NCBI GenBank assembly: GCA_017615275.1
Contig: JAGAAO010000035.1
Coordinates: 1-64,000 of the forward strand
Length of the DNA: 64,000 nucleotides
From: Butyrivibrio sp.
Lineage (GTDB): Bacteria; Bacillota; Clostridia; Lachnospirales; Lachnospiraceae
Direction of reading: 5' to 3'
Part shown: piece by piece, positions 12,313 through 53,295 of the stretch
How positions within the stretch are numbered: the stretch's first letter is position 1
Layout: every line of letters begins with the position of its first letter
Program-made: the position numbers and the translations under genes
Notes under the pieces: model-generated
Seen by the model: only the letters and a program-made list of their open reading frames with translations
Databases searched by the model: none
What the model was told of the DNA's origin: nothing

Positions 12313-12616
12313 TTGACTGCAGAAGAGAAAAGCACCGATATGAGTCAATGGATTTAGCGGGATAGATTGACCGCAGAAGAGAAAACACCGATATAAGTCA
12401 ATTGTTGGAGCAAGATTGTTTGACTGCAGGACAGATAATCTCAAAAGTGAGTCAAGTGGAGGAGGATTTTTATATGACTGCAGAAGCGAAAAGTGCCAAT
12501 GTGAGTCAAACACAGCTGCAAAAAATCTTGATTGCAAAAGAGCAAATTGCCGATGTGAGTCAACCACTGCTGCAAAATAGATTGACCGCAGAAGGAAAAA
12601 TGCAGACTGGAGTCAA
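12313..12616. repeat. Tandem dyad-repeat array 1 (six units, 54-bp period)
   Basis: Six units start at 12313, 12367, 12420, 12474, 12528 and 12582 (periods 54, 53, 54, 54, 54). Each is a 35-36-bp conserved element followed by a constant 18-bp variable spacer. Elements begin TTGACTGCAG or TTGACCGCAG and end AGTCAA, so the ends are inverted copies (TTGACT/AGTCAA) around a purine-rich core GAAGAGAAAAG then CGATATG. Units are 70-95 percent alike by eye. Frames stay open on both strands with 18-residue periodicity, but one 53-bp unit breaks them, so coding is doubtful. It fills the gap between a GNAT and a Nudix gene. Confidence 0.9.
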
Positions 12617-12669
12617 CCGCTGCCACATATTCAATTCAAAACAAGATAGTATATCCGAAGGAGAAAGAC

Positions 12670-13095
12670 ATGCAGATAAGATTTTATGACGAGAAGGAAG
12701 ATTCACTGCTTAAATTTGCGGTTATTATTGCGAAGGCGGATGGAAAGTATGTGTTCTGCATGCACAGAGAGCGCAGCACATATGAGATTCCGGGTGGGCA
12801 CAGAGAGAACGGTGAATCTATATTGGACGCGGCAAAGCGTGAGCTATATGAGGAGACGGGGGCGGTGAAGTATGACATCAAACCTGTTTGTATCTATTCT
12901 GTAACTGCGCCTGATGAGTTTGGCGGCGCAGAAACTTTCGGCGGGTTGTTCTTTGCTGAGATTGAAGAGTTGGAAGAAGAACTCTACAGCGAGATTGAGC
13001 GAATCGCTTTCTTTGACGCGGTGCCGTCTGAGTTGACTTATCCGCTGATCCAGCCAAAGCTGATCGAAGAGGCAGAAAGACGCGGATTTTGTTGA
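12670..13095 (+). CDS. Nudix hydrolase
   Basis: A 141-residue Nudix protein. The catalytic box is GGHRENGESILDAAKREL followed by YEETGA, a full match to Gx5Ex7REUxEExGU. Small size and the N-terminal KFAVIIAKADGKYVFCMH strand fit the 8-oxo-dGTP diphosphatase/ADP-ribose pyrophosphatase-like housecleaning group; the real substrate cannot be told. AAGGAGA lies at 12658-12664 before the ATG. It follows repeat array 1 by about 50 bp, and its stop is 18 bp before the next start. Confidence 0.85.
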   Translation: MQIRFYDEKEDSLLKFAVIIAKADGKYVFCMHRERSTYEIPGGHRENGESILDAAKRELYEETGAVKYDIKPVCIYSVTAPDEFGGAETFGGLFFAEIEELEEELYSEIERIAFFDAVPSELTYPLIQPKLIEEAERRGFC

Positions 13096-13112
13096 GTTTG
13101 GAGGCTTATCGG

Positions 13113-13736
13113 ATGGAGAGATATGAATTCGGAAATCCTGATTCTGCAAATATACTTGTGCAGCTGATTGGAGATCATGAACTTAGTGGCATGGAAAAAG
13201 AAGTTGCGCATATAAGGGAGATGGCGGGAGAGGATTTCTTCTTGCAGGCGTATAAAGTTGATGATTGGAATTTGGAGCTGTCGCCGTGGCAGGCGCCCGC
13301 GGTGTTTGGAGATGCAGGCTTTGGCGGTGGTGCGGGCGATACGCTGAAGGAAATTCTGCCGGAGCTTACTCATGACAATAAGACATACTTCATCGGAGGA
13401 TACTCGCTTGCAGGCTTATTTGCGCTGTGGGCGGCTTATCAAACGGATCTTTTTAAAGGAGTGGCAGCAGCTTCTCCGTCGATATGGTTTCCCGGATTTG
13501 TTGATTATATGAAGGCTGGCGAGATTAAGGCTGACAGAGTGTATCTGAGCCTCGGTAATCGCGAGGCGAAGACGAGGAATCCCGTAATGGCGATTGTCAC
13601 AGATTGCATTGAAATGTCTTTTGACCTGCTGCGGAAGCAGGGCGTTACGAGCACGCTCGAATGGAATGAAGGGAATCATTTCAAGGATGCGGACATTAGG
13701 ACTGCGAAGGCCTTTGCGTGGGTGCTGCGAAAATGA
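13113..13736 (+). CDS. Alpha/beta-hydrolase, esterase-like
   Basis: A 207-residue protein related to the putative esterase/enterochelin esterase branch. The nucleophile elbow is GGYSLAGLFALW (about 107), the acid is likely near LSLGNREAKTR, and the His is in WNEGNHFKDAD. The middle, AAASPSIWFPGF, is typical of the group. The start at 13113 has GGAGG (13100-13104) 8 bp upstream; a TTG at 13089 is less likely. It ends the first run of small-enzyme genes. Confidence 0.75.
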   Translation: MERYEFGNPDSANILVQLIGDHELSGMEKEVAHIREMAGEDFFLQAYKVDDWNLELSPWQAPAVFGDAGFGGGAGDTLKEILPELTHDNKTYFIGGYSLAGLFALWAAYQTDLFKGVAAASPSIWFPGFVDYMKAGEIKADRVYLSLGNREAKTRNPVMAIVTDCIEMSFDLLRKQGVTSTLEWNEGNHFKDADIRTAKAFAWVLRK

Positions 13737-13828
13737 ATCTCATGAAAAGTATTTCATTTTTTAACAAATCCAAAAGAAACACAAAAGAAAATAGATGTGC
13801 AAAATGTTGGAAAACAAAGAAAAAATCA

Positions 13829-13856
13829 TTGACTGATAGTGCATCCTCTATATATC
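13829..13856 (+). promoter_or_regulatory. Candidate promoter for the alcohol dehydrogenase
   Basis: TTGACT at 13829-13834 is followed 16 bp later by TATATC at 13851-13856. The 193-bp gap before the dehydrogenase otherwise holds no gene. The -10 is imperfect, so this is only a candidate. Confidence 0.35.
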
Positions 13857-13929
13857 ATGGTATAAGAAGTGAATACTGTGTGTTAAAATTGCACACTCAC
13901 ATCATGATACCAAAAGGAGGAGATATCTA

Positions 13930-15009
13930 ATGGAGCAACAGACAATGAAGGGTTTTGCAATGATCAAGATCGGCGAAGTTGGTTGGATCAATAAGGAAGT
14001 GCCTAAGTGCGGTCCTCTTGATGCTATTTGTAAACCCCTCGCTATTTCTATTTGTACTTCAGATGTACATACGGTATGGGAAGGTGCTGTTGGAGAGCGC
14101 CACAACATGATCCTCGGACATGAGGGATGCGGGGAAGTTGTTGAGGTTGGAGAACTGGTAAAAGACTTCAAGCCCGGCGACAGAGTACTTGTACCTGCTA
14201 TTACACCTGATTGGAACTCGTTGGAAGCACAGGCAGGATATTCGATGCACTCAGGCGGAATGCTTGCCGGATGGAAGTTCTCAAACTTCAAAGATGGTTT
14301 GGACGCAGAGTATTTCCATGTAAATGATGCAGACGGAAACCTTGCACTTCTTCCCGATGATATCAATATAGTTGATGCTTGTATGCTTTCTGATATGGTT
14401 CCCACCGGATTCCACGGTGTAGAACTTGCGGATGTTCAGTTCGGTGATACGGTATTGGTAGTAGGTATCGGACCTGTTGGTCTTATGAGTGTTGCGGGAT
14501 CTGCTCTCAGAGGCGCATCAAGAATCATTGCCGTAGGCACACGTCCTAAATGTGTGGAAGCAGCTAAGAAGTATGGCGCAACAGATTTTATCAATTACAA
14601 GAACGGTTCTATCGAAGATCAGGTAATGGATCTGACACACGGAAAGGGCGTAGACAGAGTTGTAATCGCAGGTGGTAATGTTGATACATTCGATTCAGCG
14701 GTTAAATCGGTTAAGCCCGGCGGACTTATCGGTAACGTAAACTACTTAGGAAGCGGTGACTACATCAGCATTCCCAGAACCGACTGGGGTGTTGGAATGG
14801 GACACAAGCAGATCCGCGGAGGACTTATGCCCGGTGGAAGACTTCGTATGGAGAAGCTCAGCACATTGGTTTCTTCCGGAAGACTTGATGTCAGCCTTCT
14901 TGCATCACATGTATTTGAAGGATGGGATGCTATTCCCGGAGCTCTGCAGCTGATGAAGGATAAACCGGCAGAGCTTATCAAACCTGTTGTAAAGCTTGTT
15001 AATGAATAA
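13930..15009 (+). CDS. NADP-dependent secondary alcohol dehydrogenase (TBADH type)
   Basis: A 359-residue zinc alcohol dehydrogenase closely resembling the Thermoanaerobacter brockii/Clostridium beijerinckii isopropanol dehydrogenases: MKGFAM, GWINKE, CTSDVHTVWEGA, GERHNMILGHEG, VPAITPDW and HSGGMLAGWKFSN are hallmarks. Catalytic zinc ligands are Cys (about 43), His in LGHE (about 65) and Asp in LSDMVPTGFH (about 155); the structural zinc loop is absent, as in that family. The Rossmann motif is VVGIGPVGLM, and GTRPK in the NADP loop fits NADP specificity. It would interconvert 2-ketones/aldehydes and alcohols, a redox sink in fermentation. AAAGGAGGAG precedes the start. Confidence 0.9.
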   Translation: MEQQTMKGFAMIKIGEVGWINKEVPKCGPLDAICKPLAISICTSDVHTVWEGAVGERHNMILGHEGCGEVVEVGELVKDFKPGDRVLVPAITPDWNSLEAQAGYSMHSGGMLAGWKFSNFKDGLDAEYFHVNDADGNLALLPDDINIVDACMLSDMVPTGFHGVELADVQFGDTVLVVGIGPVGLMSVAGSALRGASRIIAVGTRPKCVEAAKKYGATDFINYKNGSIEDQVMDLTHGKGVDRVVIAGGNVDTFDSAVKSVKPGGLIGNVNYLGSGDYISIPRTDWGVGMGHKQIRGGLMPGGRLRMEKLSTLVSSGRLDVSLLASHVFEGWDAIPGALQLMKDKPAELIKPVVKLVNE

Positions 15010-15020
15010 AGAATGATATT

Positions 15021-15057
15021 AACAGCCGCAGATTTTGTAAAAAAATTTGCGGCTGTT
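15021..15057 (+). terminator. Hairpin after the alcohol dehydrogenase gene
   Basis: AACAGCCGCA (15021-15030) pairs perfectly with TGCGGCTGTT (15048-15057) around a 17-nt AT-rich loop. Only three T end the stem and no further T-run follows, so termination would be weak; it may instead be a processing or stability structure. Confidence 0.5.
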
Positions 15058-15096
15058 TACTCGATAAAAATAATAAAAGGAAATCACATACATCAT

Positions 15097-16038
15097 ATGA
15101 AAGTATTGATAATATCAGGCTTTTTGGGCGCCGGAAAAACGACATTTATAAAAGAGCTTCTTAATAATACCGATCGCTTTGCAGCAGTGCTTGAAAATGA
15201 ATTCGGAGATACCAATCTGGACAGCCGCGAGATATCAGGGGCTGCAGGTGCCGATAATACGCAGGTTCTCGAGTTCATGGAAGGGTGCGTATGTTGTAGT
15301 AAAAAAGATTCTTTTCTCTATTCCATTCTCACTGTATCAACAAGTGTATCCCCTGATTATCTTATAGTGGAGCCCTCGGGCGTTGCCAAACTCAGCAATA
15401 TTCTCGCGGGACTTGAAAAGATAAGATATGAAAAAATAATTCCCGTAAGCCCGATAGTTATCATATCGGCGCAGTCTTTTTTCTCCAATTTAAATGAATA
15501 TCCGGATCTTATGAAAGACCAGATCTCAAATGCGGGTAATATTATCTTTTCCAAGACAGAGGGAATGGGCGCGGATGAGATTTCTGAGATAAAAAAGAAG
15601 ATCGGTGAGATCAATCCGGATGCGAAGATAACTGAATCTTACAGGGATAGCAAGAGTAAAGAATGGTGGATTGACATTATGTCCGACGAAGCACATACCG
15701 TTCCTTCACGGGATGGCTACGGCGAAGGCTCGGATGAGGATACTTCTTTTGATCAGATAAGTTTTGAATGTATGAAGTTTGATAAAATGGGGGATCTTGT
15801 AGGACTCTGCGATAAGCTGATCGCAGGTAATTACGGAAGTGTTGCCCGCGCAAAAGGCGTCGTTAAGGTGCATGATGAGGCTGTCCGCTTTGATGTTGCG
15901 GATAACAACTATGCGATCACGGGCGGCGAAGAGCCTTTCCAAACAGTCATAATAGGAACTGAGATCGACAGGGAAAAGCTCTTTTTCGAATTTGGAGAGT
16001 CTGCCCGACATGTCAAGATGACTCCGAGAAAAAGGTAA
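15097..16038 (+). CDS. CobW/YeiR-family metal-chaperone GTPase
   Basis: A 313-residue G3E GTPase. The P-loop is GFLGAGKTT (residues 8-16), the metal-binding CxCC motif is EGCVCCSKKD (about 61-70), Walker B is YLIVEPSG and the C-terminal CobW_C-like domain covers about residues 215-310. These proteins deliver Zn2+ or other metals to client enzymes. The start at 15097 places the P-loop where the family has it; an in-frame ATG at 15013 adds 28 unrelated residues through the hairpin. Following a zinc dehydrogenase is suggestive but not proof of a client link. It converges with the antiporter gene, leaving a 5-bp gap. Confidence 0.8.
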   Translation: MKVLIISGFLGAGKTTFIKELLNNTDRFAAVLENEFGDTNLDSREISGAAGADNTQVLEFMEGCVCCSKKDSFLYSILTVSTSVSPDYLIVEPSGVAKLSNILAGLEKIRYEKIIPVSPIVIISAQSFFSNLNEYPDLMKDQISNAGNIIFSKTEGMGADEISEIKKKIGEINPDAKITESYRDSKSKEWWIDIMSDEAHTVPSRDGYGEGSDEDTSFDQISFECMKFDKMGDLVGLCDKLIAGNYGSVARAKGVVKVHDEAVRFDVADNNYAITGGEEPFQTVIIGTEIDREKLFFEFGESARHVKMTPRKR

Positions 16039-16043
16039 TCCGA

Positions 16044-17024
16044 TTATCTTGCTATTGCGTACGCCATGTCTGCAAGGTACATTGCGAGCATAAGACCGCC
16101 TTCAACTCTTGAGATCTTTCTTGAACTGATCGAGAAAACAAGCGCTATTGAAGATACTGCGATGAGAATCATCATGTCCATATATGATGCCATGTTTACT
16201 TCAACGGGATGGATCATCGATGAGATGCCCAGGATAAAAAGAATGTTGAAGATGTTGGAACCTATGGTGTTTCCTATCGCGAGCGCTGATTCTTTTTTTC
16301 TTATAGCAACTACGGATGTCACGAGTTCGGGAAGTGACGTTCCGAATGCTACTACCGTGAGACCTATGAGGGTCTCTGTCATTCCTGCGGCGCGTGCAAT
16401 TTCTTTTGCACAATAGACAACTACCTGTCCTCCGCCGATTATGATTCCAAGACCAAACAGAAGGAAAAAGATTGATTTGCCGAGACTGATCTCTTCAATT
16501 TCTTCCTCGGGTTCATCCTTGTGTTTTTTTGCTGAATAGACAAGGAATGAGATATATGAGATCAGCAGTATGACGAGAAGAAGTCCGTCGAATCTGCTGA
16601 CTATACCTGCGCGATGAGCTGTGTTTGCGGTGAAAAGGTTTCCGCTTAAAAGAAGCGAACCGCAGCTGATCACGAGCAGCACGCCTGTTATCAGTATTGA
16701 GAAAGGGAAATCTCTTTTTATAACTGCAGAATCTATAGGAAGAGGCTTCATCATAGCGCATATTCCAAGGATTGCAAGGAGATTAAAAAGATTTGATCCC
16801 ACAACGTTACTTATGGATATTTCATTTGAACCCTGAAGAGCCGCCGATATGCTGACTGCAAGCTCAGGCATGCTCGTTCCGAGCGCTACGATCGTAAGAC
16901 CGATGATGAGTGACGGCACGTGAAATTTTGCCGCCAGCGAAGAGCTTCCGCCGACAAACATATCAGCTCCTTTTACAAGAGCAAAGAAGCCCAGTGCCAA
17001 AAACAATAAATAAACTAAAACCAT
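16044..17024 (-). CDS. Cation/Na+ antiporter of the CaCA family, Mn2+-riboswitch controlled
   Basis: A 326-residue membrane protein with two homologous halves of five segments. The alpha repeats are visible: GTSMPELAVS with SNVVGSNLFNLLAILG in the first half, and GTSLPELVTS with GNTIGSNIFNILFILG in the second, giving the paired acidic cation ligands. It is YrbG-like by sequence and would normally be called a Ca2+/Na+ exchanger. The yybP-ykoY riboswitch in its leader strongly suggests Mn2+ (or mixed Mn/Ca) export in this organism. GAGGATCATTGAA precedes the ATG on the minus strand. Confidence 0.85.
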   Translation of the reverse strand: MVLVYLLFLALGFFALVKGADMFVGGSSSLAAKFHVPSLIIGLTIVALGTSMPELAVSISAALQGSNEISISNVVGSNLFNLLAILGICAMMKPLPIDSAVIKRDFPFSILITGVLLVISCGSLLLSGNLFTANTAHRAGIVSRFDGLLLVILLISYISFLVYSAKKHKDEPEEEIEEISLGKSIFFLLFGLGIIIGGGQVVVYCAKEIARAAGMTETLIGLTVVAFGTSLPELVTSVVAIRKKESALAIGNTIGSNIFNILFILGISSMIHPVEVNMASYMDMMILIAVSSIALVFSISSRKISRVEGGLMLAMYLADMAYAIAR

Positions 17025-17064
17025 TTCAATGATCCTCCTAAAAAGCCTCGGTAAGTGCTATACA

Positions 17065-17113
17065 CAAAAAAATAAGACTATTGCTGCATATCAAAAATGC
17101 AGTAAAAGTCTTG
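17065..17113 (-). terminator. Riboswitch expression-platform terminator
   Basis: On the minus strand AAGACT...CTGCA pairs with TGCAG...AGTCTT (TGCAGCAA side), followed by ATTTTTTT. The left arm uses AAGAC, which is also part of the aptamer GCAAGAC closing element, so Mn2+ binding should prevent this terminator and turn the antiporter on. Confidence 0.85.
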
Positions 17114-17197
17114 CTACAAAGAACATATTCCGGGGATGTTATCCCGTACTGACGAAATATGTTACACAAATATGTGCCAGCTACTCCCTGTTACTTG
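17100..17197 (-). promoter_or_regulatory. yybP-ykoY (Mn2+) riboswitch
   Basis: Reading the minus strand from 17197, the leader shows every conserved part of this class: GGGAGTAGC (17180-17188), a short P2 hairpin GCACA/TGTGT, then the second arm with stem ACATATT/AATATGT enclosing CGTCA-GTACG and CCCCGG, and the closing GTAGCAAGAC (near 17108-17117). P1 can form between AGTAA and TTACT. The class senses Mn2+ and controls exporters. It sits between a consensus promoter and the terminator just upstream of the antiporter. Confidence 0.93.
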
Positions 17198-17203
17198 ATG
17201 AAC

Positions 17204-17232
17204 AGTATAACGATGAAAATGTATTATGTCAA
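17204..17232 (-). promoter_or_regulatory. Sigma-A promoter for riboswitch and antiporter
   Basis: On the minus strand TTGACA (17227-17232) and TATACT (17204-17209) are separated by exactly 17 bp, a near-perfect housekeeping promoter. Transcription would begin just before the aptamer. Confidence 0.85.
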
Positions 17233-17316
17233 CCCCAATGTTCGAAGCCGAAATGTCGCATTGCGCGTGGTATTATGATAAAGTAATTTACATGAGGCAG
17301 ATAATAAGGAGCATAC

Positions 17317-18030
17317 ATGGATATAAAAATTTTTTTGCTGGAAGATGATGATGCAATCGGGATGGGACTTAAGTACTCTCTTGAAAAAGAGGGGTATTCG
17401 GTCATGCACGTAACGACCTGTAAGGATGCGGAAAAAGAGTGGTCGGAAGACAAATACGATCTGGCAATCCTTGATATCAATCTTCCCGACGGAAACGGAT
17501 ATGATGTCTGCAAAATGATAAATAGTAGCGGAGATGCGCTTGTAATTTTCCTGACTGCTTCAGATGCGGAAGTTAATGTGGTTATGGGGCTTGAGCTCGG
17601 AGCAGACGATTACATCTGTAAACCTTTTAGGATAAATGAGCTCATGGCGAGAATCAAAACCGTCATGCGAAGAAGTGGCAAAGGAAAAGGCGCGTCACAG
17701 GCGGATTCAGGCAACATCGTTAAGATTGAGAATCTCAATATATATACAAATGAAGCGAAAGTTACCCTCACGGATGATTCGGGAAAAGAAAGTCAGGTGG
17801 AGCTTACAGCGCTTGAATACAGGCTTCTTCTTGCTTTTTGTAACAACAGAGGAATCGTGCTTTCAAGAAAGAGCCTACTTGAGGACATGTGGGATGTCAG
17901 CGGCGATTTTGTAAATGACAACACCCTCACAGTCTATATAAAAAGACTTCGCGACAAGATTGAAAAAGATCCCACGAACCCGCGGATAATAAAGACCGTT
18001 CGCGGACTTGGATACATGATGGACAAATAA
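17317..18030 (+). CDS. OmpR-family response regulator
   Basis: A 237-residue two-domain regulator. The receiver has the acidic pocket LLEDDDA, phosphoacceptor Asp in LAILDINLPDG (about 54), Thr in FLTASDAE and Lys in YICKPFRI. The C-terminal winged helix (about 135-235) includes ELTALEYRLLL and TLTVYIKRLRDKIE. AAGGAG precedes the ATG. It is followed after 10 bp by its kinase and then an ABC exporter, the arrangement of peptide-sensing Bce/Vra-type modules. It probably binds the 11-bp repeats at 19041-19084. Confidence 0.88.
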   Translation: MDIKIFLLEDDDAIGMGLKYSLEKEGYSVMHVTTCKDAEKEWSEDKYDLAILDINLPDGNGYDVCKMINSSGDALVIFLTASDAEVNVVMGLELGADDYICKPFRINELMARIKTVMRRSGKGKGASQADSGNIVKIENLNIYTNEAKVTLTDDSGKESQVELTALEYRLLLAFCNNRGIVLSRKSLLEDMWDVSGDFVNDNTLTVYIKRLRDKIEKDPTNPRIIKTVRGLGYMMDK

Positions 18031-18040
18031 GGACAGGTCT

Positions 18041-19039: not shown

Positions 19040-19040
19040 T

Positions 19041-19089: not shown

Positions 19090-19128
19090 ACCCTATTCTC
19101 ATAAAGGTTCTGTGAGAAAGGAGTTTAT

Positions 19129-23665: not shown

Positions 23666-23703
23666 GATAGGGGATATGTTTTGACAGGATGAGGAGATGA
23701 CTT

Positions 23704-24037
23704 ATGAAAACGCTGTATGTATCAGACCTTGACGGAACGCTTTTGAGAAGCGATGAGAGTATAAGTGATTACACATTTCTATACAAATGAGCAGTGGCTT
23801 GAGATATTGCCTAAGGCAGCGTCGAAAGCAAACGCTATAAAGCAGCTCAAGGCACATCTTAACTGCGATCGTGTGATTTCTTTTGGTGATGGGAAAAACG
23901 ACATTGATATGTTCGAGATTGCAGATGAAAGCTACGCTGTAGAGAATGCGAATGCTGATCTTAAGAAAATCGCTACAGCTGTCATTCCTTCAAATGATGA
24001 GGACGGAGTGGCAAGATGGCTTAGTGAGAATAGATAG
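23704..24037 (+). pseudogene. Internally deleted Cof-type HAD phosphatase
   Basis: ATG 23704 (behind GAGGAGATGA) reads MKTLYVSDLDGTLLRSDE, motif I of Cof-type HAD phosphatases, but hits a stop at the 29th codon. In another frame, from about 23765, the tail HFYTNEQWLEILPKAASK and then ISFGDGKNDIDMFEIADESYAVENA is the C-terminal half with motif III/IV (GDGKND). About 150 residues of core and cap are missing between them. I infer an internal deletion with frame loss; no active phosphatase can be made. Confidence 0.75.
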
Positions 24038-24077: not shown

Positions 24078-24347
24078 TCAAGCCGCAGTGCTGCAGGAAT
24101 GTAGTGCTATTGCTTGACATTTTTTTAGAGAGGGCGTATAGTCCTCTTGTTTTGTTGGATAAGAAAACTTTCTTTTAAATTTGATTCTATCAATGTCGTT
24201 CGCGCTGATGAGCTGCGGGCGATTCTTTATCATGAGCCAATCGGCTCTGTGGCAGATATCATTCATATATGCCATGCAAATTCCTAGAGGATAGAAGAGA
24301 TAGGACGCGTCGTACGTGAGACTATACGGATTAGTAGATTGATTCAC
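24078..24347 (-). pseudogene. Possible remnant of an unidentified minus-strand gene
   Basis: A minus-strand frame of 89 codons contains a protein-like stretch (YPLGICMAYMNDICHRADW then LMIKNRPQLISANDIDR) rich in His, Cys and Trp, unlike the random shadow frames here. I do not recognise a family. Its 5' end runs into the repeat array at 24343 and there is no ribosome site, so if real it is a truncated C-terminal piece. It may equally be chance coding. Confidence 0.25.
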
Positions 24348-24603
24348 GTAAATTTGAGGGGGAATTAAGAGGTTTTACGTGAGTAAGAATAAAAGTATAA
24401 GGTAATTCACGTAAAATGGCAGTTGATTGAGGTGAATTTACGTGATATCAAGAGAAAAATAAGATTAGTTCACGTAAATTCAGGCGTGGAGCGAGTTTTT
24501 TTACGTGAGTAGAAATAAAAGTATAAGGTAATTCACGTAAAGCGACTGTTGATTGATGCAAATTTACGTGAAAGCAGGAGAAAAATTAAAACATATCACG
24601 TAG
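24311..24603. repeat. Tandem dyad-repeat array 2 (63-bp period)
   Basis: TTCACGTAAA occurs at 24343, 24406, 24469 and 24532, with a decayed copy at 24595; TTTACGTGA occurs at 24374, 24437, 24500 and 24563, with a decayed copy at 24311. Every step is exactly 63 bp. Each unit is TTTACGTGA, a 23-bp purine-rich core (AGAATAAAAG or GAGAAAAAT), then TTCACGTAAA, followed by a 21-bp spacer. Alternate units are most alike, revealing a 126-bp higher-order duplication (about 24374-24499 against 24500-24625). The array ends about 50 bp before the PD-(D/E)XK-like gene. Confidence 0.92.
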
Positions 24604-24657
24604 AACAGGAAGAATTAGTATAAACGGAAATGTTTTAGTATAAAGGAGAGCTATGGA

Positions 24658-25458
24658 ATGCGAAATTATAAAAGTGATTTAGAGGCTCAATTAAAAGAGA
24701 TTGATGAGCTGATCTCAAAAATAGATATAAATGCTACAAAGCAAAAAGATTTGAGTAATTGCGGAATCGCAATAAGCAAAAGTAATGGACAGGACCAGTA
24801 CTATTGGGTGGATAGACTTACCGGTAGGAGGAAATACGCGAAAAAGAGCGATAAGGAAAAACTTAAGAGGATTGCGCAACGCGATTATGAAATGCTGGTG
24901 AAAAAGAAGTTTGTTTGCATACGCGATGCTATAAGTGAGTTTATCAAAAACTATGATATAGAAGAAGCTGAGAAGGTTTATTTAGGTATTGCGGATGCCA
25001 GGAAGAAGCTGGTCACGCCTATTATTGAACCAAAGGCGATGTCTGTGGGTCGCTGGAAGAGTGTCGTTTATGAACCGATGGGATTTGATGAGGGTATAGG
25101 GGGCTTTTATTCTAATGCCGGTATAAGAGTGAGATCTAAATCAGAACTGATCATCGCCAATATGCTGGAGCGAGAAGGAATCCCTTATCGTTACGAATAT
25201 CCGATTGTACTTAAGAGTGTAGGAACTGTAAGACCTGATTTTACATGCCTTAATGTGAGGACAGGTCAGGAATTTATATGGGAACACTTCGGAATGATGG
25301 ATAATATTGCATATGCTAATAAGAATGTTTCAAAGATAAATGCTTATGAACACAATGGATATTATTCGGGAAAAAATATGATTATGACATTTGAAACATC
25401 TCAGCATGCCATCAGCTCATACAAAGTAAAAGCGATGATTGAGCAGTATCTGGTCTAG
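24658..25458 (+). CDS. PD-(D/E)XK-like nuclease-fold protein, function unknown
   Basis: A 266-residue protein. The N-terminus (1-25) is a short acidic helix; residues 45-80 are a basic patch (YYWVDRLTGRRKYAKK). The C-terminal half looks like a restriction-endonuclease-like core: Glu in RSKSELIIANMLEREG (about 163), Asp in TVRPDFTCLN (about 193), then FIWEHFGMMD (205-214), giving an E-PD-ExH-type site. The final Lys of a classical ExK is replaced by His or Gly. It could be a DNA-cleaving or DNA-binding protein. AAAGGAGAG precedes the start; array 2 lies immediately upstream. Confidence 0.6.
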   Translation: MRNYKSDLEAQLKEIDELISKIDINATKQKDLSNCGIAISKSNGQDQYYWVDRLTGRRKYAKKSDKEKLKRIAQRDYEMLVKKKFVCIRDAISEFIKNYDIEEAEKVYLGIADARKKLVTPIIEPKAMSVGRWKSVVYEPMGFDEGIGGFYSNAGIRVRSKSELIIANMLEREGIPYRYEYPIVLKSVGTVRPDFTCLNVRTGQEFIWEHFGMMDNIAYANKNVSKINAYEHNGYYSGKNMIMTFETSQHAISSYKVKAMIEQYLV

Positions 25459-25480: not shown

Positions 25481-26794
25481 TTACATAGCTTCCGCGGCAG
25501 AAGCCTGCTTTGCGGGAATGTTTAATTTAAAGAGCTCCTCTGTTGCAAGGCGCACTTTGGCTACATTTATGCTCTTATCCTTTGGAAAGCAGTAGTACTG
25601 TGCTTTGAGAGTTCCGATGCTTATCATGTCACCAAGTTCATACCAGAAATAATCTGCATAAAGAGAGTATGAGTGCTTGGAAGACTGAGAGTAAGCAAGG
25701 TCTGATCCGTCTCCTGTAAGACTAAAGCCATTTGTGCTGTGGATAAGTCGACCTGAGCCAATCGAATACGCAGATTTAGTGTCTTTTACGGCGACTATGT
25801 CGACAGGAATATCGAGGTAGTACTTGCCTTCCGCAATCTCTTTTCTGATGACATCCCGCTCCCATCTATACCAGTCCGAAACATATGAGAAATCATAGTT
25901 CCCGCTTGGGAATGTGGCTTCTTTTTTGCTGCAAATAAGTTCGCCTTCTTCAGACAGCTCCCAGGTGGTCTTGCAGGAGGAGCAGCTGATGGAGCAACCT
26001 TTTGAGTGCATCATTTTTTCTTTTCCGCAGACAGGGCACTTGTAAAGAACGCGCTCAAGACCTTCCGCTCTGAAGTCTTCCGTTACTTTTATGTGAGCGT
26101 TTCTTTGCCAACGCCAGTGGTCGAAAGAAAATTCATCAGAGAGGATATCGTTTATCTCGGTGATACTCTTTTTCTCAATATCTTCCTTGGAAAGAAGATA
26201 CTTAACAACTGCGCTTACAGCGACATCTCTTTTTTTTAGTCCGTTGTAGAGCGGATCTCTTTGGAAAGCACCTGTTGTGGTCACCATGACTACGGGAACT
26301 TTGAACATCTTTATACATTTTCCGACGCTTGCAGGAAGCTTTGTCGCTGTGCCGTCGAAGCTGTAGCTGGCTTCAGGGTACATCAGAACGGAAGTGCCAA
26401 GCTTGTGAAGGCAGTACATGATGTCTTTTACAAGAGGCATATCTGTGATGAATTTTCGTGCAGGGATGCATCCCATCTTACGCATCAGCCATTCTTTTCC
26501 TATAAATCCGTCAAGAGTCGTAACGATGTTGATAGGTCGTTTTGGGAAAATAGTTGCTGCAATCTCAAGGTCAGTAAAAGACGAATGGTTCATCAAAATG
26601 AGACAGGGCTCGTTCTCTCCGAGTTTCTCCATGCCTTCTTCTGAATATGTAAAGTGGCAGTCCGCCAGATCTTTTTTGGAGACAAATTTCATAATAGCCT
26701 TCCAAAATGGAGTCTGCTTTATCGGTTTTTTATTTTCATAAGGGCTTAAAGCCTCAAATTCTCTGTATGTCTTTGGTGTAAGTTTGATCTTCAT
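25481..26794 (-). CDS. PlsC-like acyltransferase with zinc-ribbon insertion
   Basis: A 437-residue protein. The acyltransferase core holds NHSSFTDLE (HX4D, about 79) and MYPEASYSFDG (block III, where EG of EGTRS is EA), so it may acylate lysophosphatidate or another glycerolipid. Near residues 255-290 there is a four-Cys zinc ribbon (CPVCGKEK ... CSISCSSC), followed by a beta-rich domain of unknown role (residues 300-430), unusual for PlsC proteins. No membrane segment is obvious, so it is probably peripheral. The start at 26794 follows AAAGGAGTATTT on the minus strand; a start 33 bp earlier is unsupported. Confidence 0.75.
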   Translation of the reverse strand: MKIKLTPKTYREFEALSPYENKKPIKQTPFWKAIMKFVSKKDLADCHFTYSEEGMEKLGENEPCLILMNHSSFTDLEIAATIFPKRPINIVTTLDGFIGKEWLMRKMGCIPARKFITDMPLVKDIMYCLHKLGTSVLMYPEASYSFDGTATKLPASVGKCIKMFKVPVVMVTTTGAFQRDPLYNGLKKRDVAVSAVVKYLLSKEDIEKKSITEINDILSDEFSFDHWRWQRNAHIKVTEDFRAEGLERVLYKCPVCGKEKMMHSKGCSISCSSCKTTWELSEEGELICSKKEATFPSGNYDFSYVSDWYRWERDVIRKEIAEGKYYLDIPVDIVAVKDTKSAYSIGSGRLIHSTNGFSLTGDGSDLAYSQSSKHSYSLYADYFWYELGDMISIGTLKAQYYCFPKDKSINVAKVRLATEELFKLNIPAKQASAAEAM

Positions 26795-26923
26795 AAATAC
26801 TCCTTTATTTTGAATGTATTTTAGCATAGTTGACTATATCATTGCGATAGAAGTCGTATTATAATATGGAGTTGTTGATTTGAAATTTTCGTATATCACA
26901 TCGGAGGAATTACGTGATTTATC

Positions 26924-43270: not shown

Positions 43271-43317
43271 GAAAAAGATAATGGAGATAGGAGAATGCCA
43301 TGGGAGGAGAACAAAAA

Positions 43318-43508: not shown

Positions 43509-43564
43509 TGTTGTTTCACAGGATGAGATTAAACATATCGAACTTGCGCGGTTGTACAAATTTT

Positions 43565-43654: not shown

Positions 43655-43668
43655 GGATGGTAATAATT

Positions 43669-46144: not shown

Positions 46145-46145
46145 C

Positions 46146-47196: not shown

Positions 47197-47438
47197 TGAA
47201 CATGATAGATTCAATACTTATAAAAGATACAACAAGGGAGCAAAGAGAGCAGATAGTGGCAGAATCCATAGGGAATATTAGCGGTTCATGCGATGGATGC
47301 ATGTCCGGTCTTGCAGAAATGTACCGGGATTATATTGATGGCAAAAAAGAAATCCGTGAGATAAACATGGAATTCAGAGCTCACTATGAATCCGGTGTTG
47401 ATGGACCTGAGAAGACAGACTGTGGGTATAAGCGATGA
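47196..47438 (+). CDS. Small conserved cysteine-containing protein
   Basis: An 80-residue acidic protein: ILIKDTTREQREQIVAESIG, then SCDGCMSGLAEMYRDYIDGK and a tail DGPEKTDCGYKR. The C-x2-C plus a late Cys might bind metal. Relatives in Lachnospiraceae are, from memory, sometimes labelled PurH-like, but it shares nothing with the real PurH transformylase. The one-base overlap with the upstream gene suggests a joint role. An ATG at 47202 is an alternative start. Confidence 0.55.
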   Translation: MNMIDSILIKDTTREQREQIVAESIGNISGSCDGCMSGLAEMYRDYIDGKKEIREINMEFRAHYESGVDGPEKTDCGYKR

Positions 47439-47461
47439 CGAATTTTTTAAAGGAGCATGTG

Positions 47462-48241: not shown

Positions 48242-48362
48242 ATTTAGATGTGAGCAAAAAGTTGTTAATAAACATCAATTTTCCGGTGCCATTTTATGTT
48301 ATTATGATTTCTGATGGAAATTTGGCTGATAAATTTTTGCGAGTTTTTTGATGGAGGAAAAA

Positions 48363-51300
48363 ATGGCACAGAGAAATGATATTCACAAGGTACTTATCAT
48401 AGGTTCAGGTCCTATCGTTATCGGACAGGCCTGTGAATTTGACTATTCGGGAACTCAGGCTTGTAAGGCACTTAGAAGCCTTGGATATGAAATTGTTCTT
48501 GTTAATTCCAATCCGGCTACAATTATGACTGATCCGGAGATGGCTGACAGGACTTATATTGAACCTTTAAATGTGGAACGTGTAGCGGCTGTAATTGAAA
48601 AAGAAAGACCGGATGCCCTTTTGCCCAATTTGGGAGGACAGTCTGGTCTTAATTTGTGTTCAGAATTGTATAAAGCCGGTGTTCTTGATAAGTATGGTGT
48701 TAAGGTCATTGGTGTTCAGGTTGATGCTATCGAGAGAGGCGAGGATAGAACTGAGTTTAAGAAAACTATGGATATGCTGGGTATTGAGATGGCGAGATCC
48801 AAGGCCTGCTACAGCATAGAGGAAGCACTGGCGGAAGCGGATGAACTTGGGTATCCTGTCGTTCTCAGACCTGCTTATACAATGGGCGGCGCCGGTGGCG
48901 GTCTGGTTTACAATAAAGAAGAACTGCAAACCGTCTGTGCAAGAGGTCTTGCTGCATCCATTATCCATCAGGTTCTGGTTGAGGAATCAATCCTTGGCTG
49001 GGAGGAGTTGGAGCTTGAGGTAGTAAGAGATAAGGATAACAACATGATCACCGTATGCTTTATCGAGAATGTTGATCCTGTAGGTGTTCACACAGGTGAT
49101 TCTTTCTGTACAGCACCTATGCTCACAATAGATGAAAATCTGCAGAAAGAGCTTCAGCGTCAGGCATATAAGATTGTCGAGCATATCGGCGTCATTGGTG
49201 GAACTAATGTACAGTTCGCGCACGATCCTAAGACAGGAAGAATTGTTGTTATCGAGATTAATCCCCGTACATCAAGATCCTCGGCTCTTGCAAGTAAGGC
49301 AACAGGATTCCCGATTGCTCTGGTATCGGCTAAGCTTGCAACGGGACTTACCTTAGCTGAGCTTCCGGATTCAAAGTTTGGAACTCTTGATAAATATGTT
49401 CCTAACGGGGATTATGTTGTAGTTAAGTTTGCCCGTTGGGCATTTGAGAAATTCCATGGAGTAGAGGATAAGCTTGGCACACAGATGAGAGCTGTGGGCG
49501 AAGTTATGTCTATCGGTAAGAACTTCAAGGAGGCTTTCCAGAAGGCTATAAGATCTCTTGAGAAGGGAAGATACGGTCTTGGAAATGTGAAGAAATATGA
49601 GGAGATGGATAAGGAAGAACTTTTGCATCTTTTGAAGGATGCTTCCTCCGAGAGATATTTTCTTATATATGAAGCCTTCAAGAAGGGGATTACAGTTGAT
49701 GAGATATTCGACATAACCAAAGTTAAGCATTATTTCCTCAATGAGATAAAAGAGCTTGTAGACGAAGAGACAGCTATTGTCAAGGAGTTTAAGGGCAGCG
49801 TTCCTACTAAAGAAATCCTTATCAAGGCTAAAGAAGACGGCTTTGCAGATAAGTATTTATCGGGACTTCTTGGTGTCTCTGAGGATGATATCAGAAATAA
49901 GAGAGATGAGTATGGTCTTATAGAAAAGTGGGATGGCGTTCACGTATATGGAACGGACGGCGCTGCTTACTATTATTCAACATACAAGGCAGATGTAAAG
50001 CTTGAGAATCCAAAGGGAGACTCTGCAGCCGGTGCAAAGAAGATTATGATCCTTGGCGGCGGTCCCAACAGAATCGGACAGGGTATAGAGTTTGACTACT
50101 GCTGCGTTCATGCGGCCCTTGCGCTTAAAAAACTCGGCTTTGAGACTATCATTGTTAACTGCAATCCGGAGACGGTTTCTACTGATTATGACACCTCAGA
50201 TACTTTGTATTTTGAGCCTTTGACTTTGGAGGATGTTCTTCAGATATACAGAAAAGAAAAGCCTGTAGGCGTAATTGCGCAGTTTGGCGGACAGACGCCT
50301 CTTAATCTTGCTGCAAAACTTAAGGAAGAGGGCGTGAATATTCTTGGAACAACTCCCGAGGTTATTGATCTTGCAGAGGACAGAGATCAGTTCCGTATGA
50401 TGATGGAGAAGCTGGATATTCCCATGGCTGAGTCAGGAATGGCTTCTGATGTTGAAGGAGCAAAAGAGATAGCTGCAAGAATTGGTTATCCTGTAATGGT
50501 TCGTCCTTCCTTCGTTCTTGGTGGAAGAGGAATGGAAATCGTAAGGGATGAGGAGAGCATGGAAGGCTACATGAAGGCCGCTGTAGGTGTGACTCCCGAC
50601 AGGCCGATCCTGATAGACAGATTTTTACATAATGCACTTGAGTGCGAAGCAGATGCCATCAGCGATGGTGAGAGGGCATTTGTTCCTGCTGTTATGGAGC
50701 ATATCGAATTGGCAGGTATTCATTCAGGAGATTCGGCATGCATTGTGCCTTCAAAGCATATATCCGAGAAGCACTTAAAGACTATTGAGGAATATACACG
50801 TAAGATTGCTGTAGAAATGAATGTCGTAGGACTTATGAATATGCAGTATGCGATTGAGGATGATACTGTGTATGTGCTTGAAGCAAATCCGCGTGCATCA
50901 AGAACGGTGCCTCTGGTATCAAAGGTATGCGGAATAAAGATGGTGCCTATTGCTACAGATATCATTACTGCATCTCTTACAGGAAGAAAGTCACCTGTGC
51001 AGGAACTTATTGATAACAAGAAGACTACTGAACCGGAGTATTATGGCGTAAAAGAGGCTGTATTCCCCTTCAATATGTTCCCTGAGGTTGATCCGGTTCT
51101 CGGACCTGAAATGCGTTCTACAGGTGAGGTACTTGGACTGGCCAAAACTCCCGGTGAAGCATTCTTCAAGGCAGAGGAAGCTGCTAATGCAGCACTTCCG
51201 TTAGAAGGAGCCGTTCTCATTTCGCTTAATGATGAGGATAAGCCGTACGCAGCTGAGATAGCAGGGGCATTCATTAAGGAGAACTTTAAGATCTACGCAA

Positions 51301-51608
51301 CAGGTAAGACCTATGATATCATTACCGCTGCAGGCCTTGAGTCAACAAGAATTCTCAAGAACTATGAGGGCGGAAGGCCAAACGTCGAAGATCTCATAAA
51401 GAACGGCGATGTACAGCTTGTTATAAATACTCCTATCGGAAAAGGTGCAAAGTACGATGATGCTTACCTTCGCCGAGCAGCGATCAAGGCTCGCATTCCA
51501 TACATAACCACTGTTGCTGCAGCTAAGGCAGCAGCTCAAGGAATCAGTGAAGTGAAAATGGGAGGATGCGGAAACATTAAATCACTGCAAGAGTATTCCT
51601 GCGATTAA
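48363..51608 (+). CDS. carB: Carbamoyl-phosphate synthase large subunit
   Basis: A 1081-residue enzyme making carbamoyl phosphate from bicarbonate, ammonia and two ATP for arginine and pyrimidines. Both ATP-grasp halves are seen: HKVLIIGSGPIVIGQACEFD at the start and KIMILGGGPNRIGQGIEFDY at about 560, with VIEINPRTSRSSALASKATG and VLEANPRASRTVPLVSKVCG. The C-terminal MGS-like allosteric domain covers about 940-1081. The start at 48363 uses GGAGG (48353-48357); 48351 and a TTG at 48348 are in frame but inside or before that site. No carA lies next to it, which is unusual. Confidence 0.95.
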   Translation: MAQRNDIHKVLIIGSGPIVIGQACEFDYSGTQACKALRSLGYEIVLVNSNPATIMTDPEMADRTYIEPLNVERVAAVIEKERPDALLPNLGGQSGLNLCSELYKAGVLDKYGVKVIGVQVDAIERGEDRTEFKKTMDMLGIEMARSKACYSIEEALAEADELGYPVVLRPAYTMGGAGGGLVYNKEELQTVCARGLAASIIHQVLVEESILGWEELELEVVRDKDNNMITVCFIENVDPVGVHTGDSFCTAPMLTIDENLQKELQRQAYKIVEHIGVIGGTNVQFAHDPKTGRIVVIEINPRTSRSSALASKATGFPIALVSAKLATGLTLAELPDSKFGTLDKYVPNGDYVVVKFARWAFEKFHGVEDKLGTQMRAVGEVMSIGKNFKEAFQKAIRSLEKGRYGLGNVKKYEEMDKEELLHLLKDASSERYFLIYEAFKKGITVDEIFDITKVKHYFLNEIKELVDEETAIVKEFKGSVPTKEILIKAKEDGFADKYLSGLLGVSEDDIRNKRDEYGLIEKWDGVHVYGTDGAAYYYSTYKADVKLENPKGDSAAGAKKIMILGGGPNRIGQGIEFDYCCVHAALALKKLGFETIIVNCNPETVSTDYDTSDTLYFEPLTLEDVLQIYRKEKPVGVIAQFGGQTPLNLAAKLKEEGVNILGTTPEVIDLAEDRDQFRMMMEKLDIPMAESGMASDVEGAKEIAARIGYPVMVRPSFVLGGRGMEIVRDEESMEGYMKAAVGVTPDRPILIDRFLHNALECEADAISDGERAFVPAVMEHIELAGIHSGDSACIVPSKHISEKHLKTIEEYTRKIAVEMNVVGLMNMQYAIEDDTVYVLEANPRASRTVPLVSKVCGIKMVPIATDIITASLTGRKSPVQELIDNKKTTEPEYYGVKEAVFPFNMFPEVDPVLGPEMRSTGEVLGLAKTPGEAFFKAEEAANAALPLEGAVLISLNDEDKPYAAEIAGAFIKENFKIYATGKTYDIITAAGLESTRILKNYEGGRPNVEDLIKNGDVQLVINTPIGKGAKYDDAYLRRAAIKARIPYITTVAAAKAAAQGISEVKMGGCGNIKSLQEYSCD

Positions 51609-51687
51609 CGGTATATATAAAATGATTATAGTTTCCCTAAACTCAAATAGGATTTTTATTCTTTTATTTAGGGAGGAGAGTTTAGAG

Positions 51688-51860
51688 ATGAAGAAAAAAA
51701 TCGTAAGTATTGCGCTTTCGGCAGTGCTGGCATTGATGATGAGCTTGCAGCGCTCGGATATAAGCTCACAGAAGATCAAACTTATAAGGTGACCTGTAAC
51801 GGAAATAACGGACGTCCCCACAGTCCTTCAGTAAGTATCTATCAGGTGGTTGCAAGATGA
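51688..51860 (+). pseudogene. Internally deleted secreted-protein gene
   Basis: GGGAGGAG (51671-51678) and ATG 51688 start a clear signal peptide (MKKKIVSIALSAVLALMMSL), but the frame then ends within 34 codons. In another frame from 51738, DELAALGYKLTEDQTYKVTC followed by NGRPHSPSVSIYQVVAR to TGA 51860 looks like the ordered C-terminus of an extracellular protein. The body is missing, so this is another start-plus-tail remnant; the protein family cannot be named. Confidence 0.6.
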
Positions 51861-51927
51861 TGTAAGGATGCTATAATCAGATAGTCAATTATGAAAAAAG
51901 TTATTTTGTCAGAGGGGGAAAGTTAAT

Positions 51928-52713
51928 ATGAAATCACCTGCAGAAATCGCATCTAAGTATGAAGTTGTGGGAAAGGGGAAGACAGAAGGTAAGCTCTTGC
52001 AGACATTTGTGCTTGCCATACTTGCCGGCGCATTCATTGCTCTGGGAGGTCTCGGAAGCCAGATAGCATCAAGCTGCGCACCCGATCCGTCAACAGGAAG
52101 GGTTATCAGTTCAGTTGTGTTCCCTATTGGCCTGTTTATGGTGCTTGTAGGTGGAGCAGAGCTTTTTACCGGTAACTGCCTTATCACAATTCCTGTTTTA
52201 TCCAAGAAGGCTACAGTAAAAGGAATGCTCAGAAACTGGATAATAGTCTACTTCGGCAATATGGTCGGAGGTTTTCTGATTGCGGCGCTTGCTGCTTTCA
52301 GTCACATATATTCTTTTAACGACGGAAATCTCGCCGCGCAGGTAGTCAACACGGCTGTCACCAAGTCTTCAATTTCATTCGGAGATGCTTTTTTGAGAGG
52401 TATTCTTTGCAATGTTCTTGTTTGCATGGCTGTTTGGTGCTCTTTTGCAGCAGATGAGCTTGCCGGCAAGGTGTTTGCTCTTTGGCTTCCTGTAATGCTG
52501 TTTATAATTTGCGGTTTTGAGCACTGTGTTGCCAATATGTACTTTATTCCCGCGGGATTTTTGGCATCCTATGTCCATGGCATTTCAGGAGAGGGATTGT
52601 CTTTGATCGGATTTTTTGTTACAAACCTAATCCCTGTTACACTGGGCAATATCGTAGGCGGAGGCATCTGCGTCGGAGCTGCCTACCACCTGATCTATCT
52701 GAAGAAAGACTGA
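51928..52713 (+). CDS. Formate/nitrite transporter (FNT) channel
   Basis: A 261-residue membrane protein with six segments. FNT signatures are MVLVGGAELFTGNCLI and DAFLRGILCNVLVCMAVWCS; the central His is in CGFEHCVANMYFIPAG. The product would pass formate, nitrite or hydrosulphide as a pentamer. Formate export fits a fermenting anaerobe. AGAGGGGGAAAG precedes the ATG. It is monocistronic, with a terminator about 130 bp downstream. Confidence 0.88.
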   Translation: MKSPAEIASKYEVVGKGKTEGKLLQTFVLAILAGAFIALGGLGSQIASSCAPDPSTGRVISSVVFPIGLFMVLVGGAELFTGNCLITIPVLSKKATVKGMLRNWIIVYFGNMVGGFLIAALAAFSHIYSFNDGNLAAQVVNTAVTKSSISFGDAFLRGILCNVLVCMAVWCSFAADELAGKVFALWLPVMLFIICGFEHCVANMYFIPAGFLASYVHGISGEGLSLIGFFVTNLIPVTLGNIVGGGICVGAAYHLIYLKKD

Positions 52714-52839
52714 GCTTGAGGATGATATGCGACTGTTGCGTCTTGAAAAGCGGTTGTTATATTCGGATAAACTGTTCTGTATTTGAGGATCAGATGTTGT
52801 ATTGGGATAGAGTATTGTCCTATAGAAGAAAATATGCGG

Positions 52840-52868
52840 AGGCATGGCTGAAAGGCTGTGCCTTTTTT
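52840..52868 (+). terminator. Terminator after the FNT gene
   Basis: AGGCATGGC (52840-52848) pairs with GCTGTGCCT (52855-52863) with wobble pairs, then six T. The 127 bp before it hold only AT-rich sequence with no gene. Confidence 0.75.
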
Positions 52869-52920
52869 ATTTAATAGATATTTTTCTGAAATTCTATCAA
52901 ATAAAAAGCGCTCCGCTATG

Positions 52921-52975
52921 GATGCGCAGCTCGCGGAATGGTAGATAATTGCTTCGCAATACCGCGCCTAGCGCG
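52921..52975. repeat. Dispersed dyad repeat, copy A
   Basis: GATGCGCAGCTCGC, then GATAATTGCTTCGCAATACC and CGCGCC, matches the copy at 59562-59613 over about 55 bp with scattered changes. CGCGG/CCGCG arms can pair. It lies between the FNT terminator and array 3. No transposase is near. Confidence 0.7.
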
Positions 52976-53019
52976 AGAATGTCGCAAGCGGCATTCTTTG
53001 TTCTTGCTCTGCGTTTGCT

Positions 53020-53295
53020 CCTGTTGGAAATACATCTTGTGGTTTTTTCAACAGGCTGGAATTTGGGAGATCTCCTGTTTGAATTGTGCTTTTTTGGAAT
53101 CTCAACAGTGAGAAAACGAGACATTTCCCTGTTGTGTTTTGTGATTTTCGGAATCTCAACAGGGAGAAAGCGAGATATTTCCCTGTTGCGTTTTGAGATT
53201 TCGGAATCCCAACAGGAAGAAAGCGAGATATTTCCCTGTTGTATTTTGCGATTTCCGGAATTCCAACAGGCAAAAGCGAGATATTTTCCCTGTTG
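53020..53295. repeat. Tandem dyad-repeat array 3 (54-bp period)
   Basis: CAACAG(G) lies at 53049, 53103, 53157, 53210 and 53264, and CCTGTTG (or CCTGTTT) at 53020, 53074, 53128, 53182, 53235 and 53289: steps of 54 bp with a single 53. Units are CAACAGGG, core AGAAAGCGAGATATTT, CCCTGTTG (32 bp), then a 21-22-bp spacer with shared GATTT and GGAAT. Open frames on both strands have 18-residue periodicity, but the 53-bp unit shifts them. The array fills most of the gap before the SPFH gene. Confidence 0.92.

Follow-up and report, generated by a model that had tools for sequence, protein, structure and literature searches.

Helically phased arrays of inverted half-sites linked to a family of small predicted nucleases in Butyrivibrio

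A 64,000-nucleotide stretch of Butyrivibrio sp. DNA (GenBank assembly GCA_017615275.1, contig JAGAAO010000035.1, positions 1 to 64,000; hereafter the window) contained three arrays of tandem dyads, the second of which directly preceded the gene of a predicted nuclease. The window was part of a 91.6 kb contig in a genome of 3.18 Mb and 99 contigs. Judged from comparisons of sequences, the arrays are probably rows of predicted duplex-DNA binding sites for a family of small predicted nucleases of some gut and rumen bacteria, with proposed autorepression of the nuclease genes and orphan arrays bound in trans. Sequence-specific binding of duplex DNA by the linked protein was a well-supported prediction, and autoregulation of the nuclease gene was plausible. 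Below, genomes, contigs and loci carry G, C and L numbers, respectively; contigs are those of the source genome unless another is named.

Arrays in the window

The features of the window were as follows.

12313..12616, + strand: array 1, six dyads TTGACT-N23/24-AGTCAA with a period of 54 bp; orphan, with a NUDIX gene (12670) starting 53 bp downstream
24114..24142, + strand: promoter-like site TTGACA-17-TATAGT, called solely on a match to 11 of 12 consensus positions, about 170 bp upstream of array 2
24311..24604, + strand: array 2, five dyads TTTACGTGA-N24-TCACGTAAA spaced by exactly 63 bp; proposed cognate of the gene at 24658
24658..25458, + strand: gene of the 266-residue predicted nuclease, with its open reading frame starting 53 bp after array 2
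53049..53295, + strand: array 3, five dyads CAACAGGG-N16-CCCTGTTG with a period of 54 bp, the first degenerate; orphan

Each unit was composed of two inverted half-sites of 6–9 bp, and the distance between them was fixed. The units of array 1, which was detected by Tandem Repeats Finder, started at 12313, 12367, 12420, 12474, 12528, and 12582 (spacings of 54, 53, 54, 54, and 54 bp), and those of array 2 at 24311, 24374, 24437, 24500, and 24563 (63 bp at every step). The units of array 3 started at 53049, 53103, 53157, 53210, and 53264 (54, 54, 53, and 54 bp). An earlier note on this DNA had placed the three arrays in one element class with differing arms, and the same dyad and spacer scheme was indeed present in all of them. 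The measured spacings of 53–54, 63, and 53–54 bp agreed with its periods of 54, 63, and 54 bp and with its layout of dyad plus spacer. The arms were uniform within each array, as it had stated, with 0–2 mismatches per left or right arm. The four units that it had counted in array 3 were real, and the degenerate unit at 53049 lay outside them.

The similar core described in the earlier note was retained in part. When columns were permuted within each array, the loops of arrays 1 and 3 were alike (p = 0.005) and those of arrays 1 and 2 weakly so (p = 0.036), but those of arrays 2 and 3 were not (p = 0.77). No core was common to the three arrays, and it was the arms that were conserved, not the loops; a shared core was thus dropped as the defining feature. 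A shared purine core as a general rule was rejected on the same permutation test. The purine-rich strand mostly matched the local GC skew, with exceptions, and the GA-rich core was missing from the compared gene-adjacent arrays of the arm family of array 1 (L247 and L257).

Linkage of arrays to the nuclease genes

The gene–array linkage was examined at 104 gene loci, composed of five loci of the source genome, loci from the genus search and from a second set of ten genomes (G045 and nine Fibrobacter or spirochaete genomes), and 40 loci hand-picked from listings. Many of them were orthologues, and L289 and L298 were the same gene. The cut-off for calling an array was the 99th percentile obtained when the upstream regions were shuffled 520 times, and genes were required to have at least 600 bp upstream. 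Three loci with short flanks were dropped from the upstream count and two from the downstream count. Of the 101 genes, 89 had an upstream array; a downstream array was present at 8 of 102. An array would seldom be expected in a random stretch of 850 bp, because arrays were listed about once per 22–55 kb in a de novo dyad scan.

The five complete family genes of the source genome were preceded by five different arms, namely TTTACGTGA (C1), GACACGC (C80), CAACAG (C82), TTGACT (C68), and TGCCTAA (C72). Since each complete gene had its own upstream array, the window gene was taken as the partner of array 2, and the C68 and C82 genes as those of the orphan arrays 1 and 3. The cognate gene of array 1 would therefore lie on C68 (L237) and that of array 3 on C82 of the same genome.

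This pairing was tested in G045, where six orphan families of its contig C2 were noted before the genes were inspected and a match to six genes was predicted. Four of the six families matched a gene with agreeing periods: TTGACTAA at 84 bp, CAGATAA at 75 bp, CTGTACGGTG at 52 bp, and CGACAGCGG at about 63 bp, the last with degenerate half-sites below the array cut-off.

Promoter-like sites were concentrated before the arrays, at 0.60 per kb compared with 0.14 in shuffled sequence, and occurred there at 19 of 85 loci. Their density was 0.08 per kb inside arrays (0.26 shuffled) and 0.28 per kb after them (0.28 shuffled). A conserved leader RNA between promoter and array was considered and rejected, as the shared blocks were confined to arm groups and some were merely the upstream gene; no noncoding RNA is claimed. 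A conserved, possibly hairpin-forming block preceded several genes, most of which had arms of the CTG type (L236 730–835, L246 647–766, L250 676–796, L251 795–913, and L268 628–797). It could mark the left boundary of the unit or be a repeat that is dispersed in the genome.

Helical phasing of the units

The 335 spacings of up to 110 bp in gene-linked arrays, orthologues included, fell into the classes 51–55, 62–65, 71–76, 83–86, 94–96, and 104–108 bp, with one outlier at 42 bp. The class of 104–108 bp was partly the doubled spacing of 53–54 bp. No spacing occurred at 43–50, 56–61, 66–70, 77–82, 87–93, or 97–103 bp. The Rayleigh length calculated from the medians of 26 groups was R = 0.87 at 10.6–10.7 bp, and none of 5000 jittered sets was as high, the top value being 0.67. 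The preferred unit spacing is a multiple of the DNA helical repeat.

Predicted nuclease and its relatives

In the structure model, the window protein was composed of a helix, a three-stranded sheet (residues 35–60), a long helix, and a C-terminal domain predicted to be a PD-(D/E)XK or Vsr/EDxHD-like nuclease. The conserved residues of the nuclease domain were Arg159, Ser160, Lys161, Glu163, Asp194, Glu209, His210, and Gly212. Residues Glu163, Glu209, and His210 were present in all 100 proteins aligned, Asp194 in 99 of 100, and the candidate last aspartate, Asp215, in 85 of 100; these residues presumably correspond to the EDxHD motif. Among the structure matches listed, the nearest catalytic domain was that of I-Bth0305I, a homing endonuclease of the EDxHD/Vsr fold. 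The N-terminal half matched mainly coiled-coil chains in the VIA structure listing; AP2-like chains were absent from that listing, and this absence does not argue against such a structure.

No family was assigned to the window protein at believable scores by Pfam (E 0.001) and NCBIfam. The PADLOC phage-defence candidate PDC-S68 matched the C-terminal nuclease domain with an E value of 3.6e-27, covering at most residues 127–264 of 266 and the last part of the models. The domain also matched the C-terminus of plasmid proteins annotated as AAA ATPase, RecD-like, or RecQ. A sequence search of the PDB gave a single match, a carbon–nitrogen hydrolase (E 0.022), which was not believed.

Relatives of the window protein were encoded after the C82 array and between two TTTACGTGA arrays of Treponema. 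The seven family matches in the source genome were five complete genes, one partial gene, and one remnant. Across the genus, 70 of 79 genomes had matches (E 1e-6), with up to 10 per genome, and the weak best matches in two of the 70 (about 1e-10 and 1e-11) possibly represented the nuclease domain alone. The family was also found in Treponema and Fibrobacter, being present in all ten genomes of the second set. A sample of 398 genomes of the phylum gave six with a match: two of the same genus, three of other genera of the taxonomic family, and one with the nuclease domain only. The other-genus members L365 and L366 had upstream arrays, L366 also a downstream one. In viral contigs, 45 stretches fitted the peptide pattern and none was confirmed by tblastn.

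Half-site specificity and the N-terminal region

Arms were called at 89 loci, and the 86 of these that were present in the protein alignment were used in the comparison of arms with proteins. Different family proteins had different half-sites. Half-site similarity tracked residues 31–65 beyond overall identity (partial rho 0.36–0.41), and the values for other segments were at most 0.31. Partial Mantel values were 0.25 for residues 31–65, 0.11 for residues 1–30, and 0.18 for residues 66–266 (p of about 0.002 each). Two natural swaps were found. When L249 was compared with L258, and L276 with L278, in windows of 30 residues, residues 151–266 were 88–100% identical and residues 1–60 were 16–41% identical, and the arms differed. 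This covariation and the natural swaps suggest that the three-stranded sheet near residues 31–65 reads the half-site. In addition, an arginine at position 58 next to Tyr60 was confined to CG-containing arms, being found in 6 of 10 CG groups and in none of the 14 others (Fisher p = 0.0016, post hoc).

Arrays across the genome, the genus, and other phyla

Further arrays, on whose existence the earlier note had staked its repeat family, were found by arm-pattern searches and by the de novo dyad scan. The arm patterns, with the loop left free, were searched in the 79 genomes of the genus, and a reversed pattern used as a control gave no match in the same genomes. The pattern CAACAGGG..CCCTGTTG was found in 8 of 79 genomes, two of which (G042 and G029) held single units of other lengths, possibly by chance, and TTTACGTGA..TCACGTAAA was found in 3 of 79. 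In the source genome, TTTACGTGA..TCACGTAAA gave 12 exact units on contigs C1, C4, C15, C25, and C73, with a spacing of 63 bp wherever consecutive units were listed. A first pattern scan of the genome contigs was too specific and gave no match. The CAACAGGG..CCCTGTTG pattern in viral contigs gave 45 stretches of one dyad each, which look like chance matches and were set aside.

Between loci, the arm sequence and the total length of the dyad were kept, and the loops and spacers differed. The total length of the TTTACGTGA dyad was 42–43 bp (18–30 bp were allowed between the arms, and only 24–25 bp occurred), and that of the CAACAGGG dyad was mostly 32–33 bp (8–24 bp allowed). Arm families recurred in several species, each with its own period: about 54 bp for CAACAGGG, 63–64 bp for TTTACGTGA, 75 bp for CAGATAA, 52 bp for CTGTACGGTG, 63 bp for CGACAGCGG, and 54, 74, or 84 bp within the TTGACT types.

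The de novo scan, which sought tandem dyads with a common arm and loop length, covered 712,556 bases of the source genome and 460,000 of G045. It gave 13 clusters in the source genome against 1 in a shuffled copy, and 21 in G045 against none. Array 1 was missed by the scan, its arms being too short and varied for the cut-off. One of the 13 clusters, L018 8510–8654, looks like a histidine/aspartate-rich coding repeat unrelated to the arrays.

When 84,980 species genomes were scanned for TTTACGTGA-N23..26-TCACGTAAA, 52 stretches were found. By our own count, 24 were from Fibrobacter, 10 from Treponema or other spirochaetes, 3 from Butyrivibrio, and 15 from others with one dyad each; a rough estimate puts the last group at about the chance level. 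The TTTACGTGA half-sites were equally distant in Butyrivibrio, Treponema, and Fibrobacter, within the dyad length of 41–44 bp that this pattern itself sets. The unit spacings over the three genera were 63–64, 73–75, 84, 94, 104, 188–190, 199, and 209 bp. At the 14 loci inspected across phyla, Treponema units were 73–75, 84, 94, or 104 bp apart, and Fibrobacter pairs were 188–190, 199, or 209 bp apart, corresponding to about 18, 19, and 20 turns.

Several further observations concerned the arrays. At the Fibrobacter loci L275, L278, L279, L284, L294, and L295, a spacing pattern of about 64-95-84 was wholly or partly kept and the arms differed, as if the layout had been conserved and the specificity exchanged. 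For the CAGATAA family, the sole gene trace found in the source genome was a remnant with half-sites (L240, contig C98), and two orphan arrays persisted (contig C4 noted); arrays may outlive their gene. Different arm families stood side by side at one intergenic site in L042, L043, and L045 of G016 and G045 (TTTACGTGA with CTGTACGGTG). An imperfect palindrome about 170 bp long, interspersed in the sequence, adjoined the arrays in L022 and L045 of G045 and by eye appeared similar to a miniature inverted-repeat transposable element.

Arm switching at the NUDIX site

The compensatory arm change and homogenisation proposed in the earlier note could be seen at a single site. Before the NUDIX gene that follows array 1 in the window, G016, G032, and G034 had 5, 10, and 5 scan-detected inner units (T)ATGACC..GGTCAT(A), respectively. 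These units shared the period of array 1 and had related loops, and the outer flanking units were TGACT..AGTCA like array 1, some of them degenerate. Because ATGACC inner units and TGACT outer units precede the same NUDIX gene, both arms appear to have changed together in many units while the array stayed in place. Synteny was kept on the NUDIX side, and the upstream neighbour in G016 and G034 appeared by eye unlike the acetyltransferase of the window. In G045, the acetyltransferase was kept and the NUDIX gene was reduced to a 3′ piece, the array apparently having been lost with the rest.

Neighbouring genes

Upstream of array 2, a HAD-type hydrolase gene (window 23703–24037) appeared by eye to be broken, with an early frame end and a later part still readable. 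The nuclease gene was adjoined by an acyltransferase gene (window 25481–26827, − strand), and relatives of the latter adjoined other family members in G024, G035, and G047. The acyltransferase side is perhaps a preferred neighbourhood of the nuclease family.

Proposed mechanism

Most nuclease genes would carry their own array between promoter and start codon. Several such pairs with different half-sites coexist in many of the Butyrivibrio genomes. The spacing suggests that two protomers bind the two inverted half-sites of one unit and that successive units lie on one face of the helix, so that a cooperative filament or coil could form. Occupation of the array would probably repress its own gene; this repression is proposed because strong promoter-like sites precede the arrays and seldom occur within them. 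Orphan arrays such as arrays 1 and 3 would be bound in trans by a protein encoded elsewhere. The nuclease activity is probably used, since the catalytic residues are nearly invariant. Its likeliest substrate would be DNA in or close to the dyads, and the breaks would be repaired between units; such cleavage and repair would account for the growth and homogenisation of arrays and for concerted switches of their arms. A further step would make the system a bacterial analogue of satellite or homing drive. Each nuclease would cut its own array, repair between units and between loci would homogenise arrays and spread new half-sites, and the protein (residues 31–65) and arrays would turn over together, so that one genome would host many orthogonal pairs and exchange would occur across phyla in gut and rumen. 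We regard this extension as speculative and rather improbable.

Several observations weigh against the interpretation of the arrays as binding sites of the linked nucleases. By the scan, 12 of the 101 genes had no upstream array, although L297, L325, and L337 among them had a downstream one. No array was seen at the other-genus member L367 or at L385, the one near-full-length match in a phage record. Part of the arm signal reflects common descent, because arm similarity also tracked residues 66–266. In G045, the TTTACGTGA family was unmatched. The half-site of the nearest gene, L281, was related to it but differed (TCTACGTGT/TCTACGGGT), with the same spacing of 64 bp. An TCTACGTGT-type array with ACCGTAA at 64 bp, like that of L281, was present in L022 on the contig that holds the orphan families. 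No gene of G045 corresponded to the CAACAGGG family, and none of the orphan arrays noted there matched its sixth gene (L272, GGCAGG). With four matches and TTTACGTGA only a near-match, our confidence was slightly lowered. Finally, an active nuclease beside its own intact targets would be self-damaging unless restrained.

Alternative explanations

The nuclease and its array could instead form a selfish, homing-like mobile element, with orphan arrays as non-autonomous traces and arm turnover as an arms race or an escape from self-targeting. Mobility is suggested by L263, which had just the array and gene in common with several relatives. However, six members with TTGACT arms from six genomes (L237, L247, L248, L252, L257, and L265) were all located downstream of the ribosomal protein S9 gene (identified by Pfam Ribosomal_S9 for the L237 copy), and three other species had a counterpart of array 1 before the NUDIX gene, which together argue for a long vertical stay. 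The gene's own target-like sites were intact, unlike in classical homing, and no clean empty site emerged from DNA searches centred on L263 and on the window gene. We consider such an element a serious possibility, though somewhat improbable. The protein could also be a purely autoregulated transcription regulator that keeps the nuclease fold for DNA binding, its operators being the arrays and its regulon the orphan arrays. The position of the array between promoter-like site and gene fits this explanation, as does the end of array 1, 53 bp upstream of the NUDIX start codon. It is nevertheless doubtful, given the near-invariance of the catalytic residues in 100 proteins and the orphan arrays on C42 and C4, where by eye no co-directional downstream gene was evident.

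A role in defence, with the nuclease directed against foreign DNA and retained or tuned by the arrays, would accord with the resemblance of its domain to the PDC-S68 C-terminus and to the annotated plasmid proteins. These matches cover one domain only and the viral contig scan confirmed no relative, and we judge a defence role unlikely. The earlier note had regarded the units as structured repeats, which would have the arms pair in RNA. The arms are complementary, and the leader of the nuclease mRNA may include the array. Helical phasing, however, is a property of duplex DNA, and the sequence conserved is that of the arms, with loop length fixed and loop sequence free. Rfam covariance models gave no match in the window at gathering scores. 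The free loops and spacers, the fixed half-site sequence, distance, and phase, the empty Rfam search, and the arms following a predicted DNA-binding nuclease leave an RNA or hairpin family unsupported and very improbable.

Under the preferred reading of arrays as duplex-DNA sites of the nuclease family, a class of bacterial intergenic repeats that had lacked an explanation is tied to a protein family, and the evolution of the repeats becomes testable. The family is a natural series of compact predicted nucleases whose DNA specificity appears to reside in a segment of about 35 residues and whose targets can be read beside most genes, so that a recognition code could emerge. It would also be a case in bacteria of binding-site arrays evolving in concert with their protein, which is otherwise a matter of eukaryotic satellites and PRDM9-type systems.

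Comparison with known systems

In a literature search of open-licence papers (subscription papers and bioRxiv were outside its scope), no description of a nuclease–array system was found. Among known systems, restriction–modification loci with controller-protein boxes have symmetric operator half-sites immediately before a nuclease gene. The new system is alike in this arrangement and differs by long phased arrays and by orphan copies elsewhere. PDC-S68 shares the C-terminal nuclease domain, but its models are 1202–1273 positions long, compared with 266 residues for the window protein, and we know of no array associated with it. The arrays also differ from CRISPR arrays, as loops often recur within them where CRISPR spacers are unique, and no cas gene was found among ten window proteins scanned with Pfam.

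The EDxHD/Vsr-fold homing endonucleases are nearest in the catalytic domain among the structure matches listed, and their glutamate, aspartate, and histidine are conserved in the new family. According to a review, I-Bth0305I binds as a dimer to a target that spans nearly 60 bp (PMC3943268). In contrast to these enzymes, the new family has free-standing genes adjoined by many intact tandem target-like sites with short fixed half-sites, and several paralogues per genome, usually each with its own array. Residence in, or disruption of, the own target is a feature of homing; here, intact target-like arrays, the presumed cleavage targets, adjoined the gene at 89 of 101 loci.

In REPtrons, a TnpA-REP (RAYT) gene accompanies repetitive extragenic palindromes (REP) and bacterial interspersed mosaic elements (BIME), with inverted pairs in tandem and further copies dispersed (PMC8266576). 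To that extent the two systems are alike: a nuclease-like gene is tied to palindromic intergenic repeats with inverted pairs, a variable linker, tandem arrangement, and dispersed copies. The linked protein is predicted to be of the PD-(D/E)XK type and not HuH/Y1 (no Pfam match at E 0.001; a separate Y1 gene in the genome was not searched for). By eye, no constant GTAG-like tetranucleotide was seen in the window units or printed loci. The new arrays are helically phased duplex half-sites, not single-strand hairpins, and many arm types occur per genome. The layout of the system is thus close to that of REPtrons and its predicted fold to that of EDxHD enzymes, and it departs from each in a defining feature.

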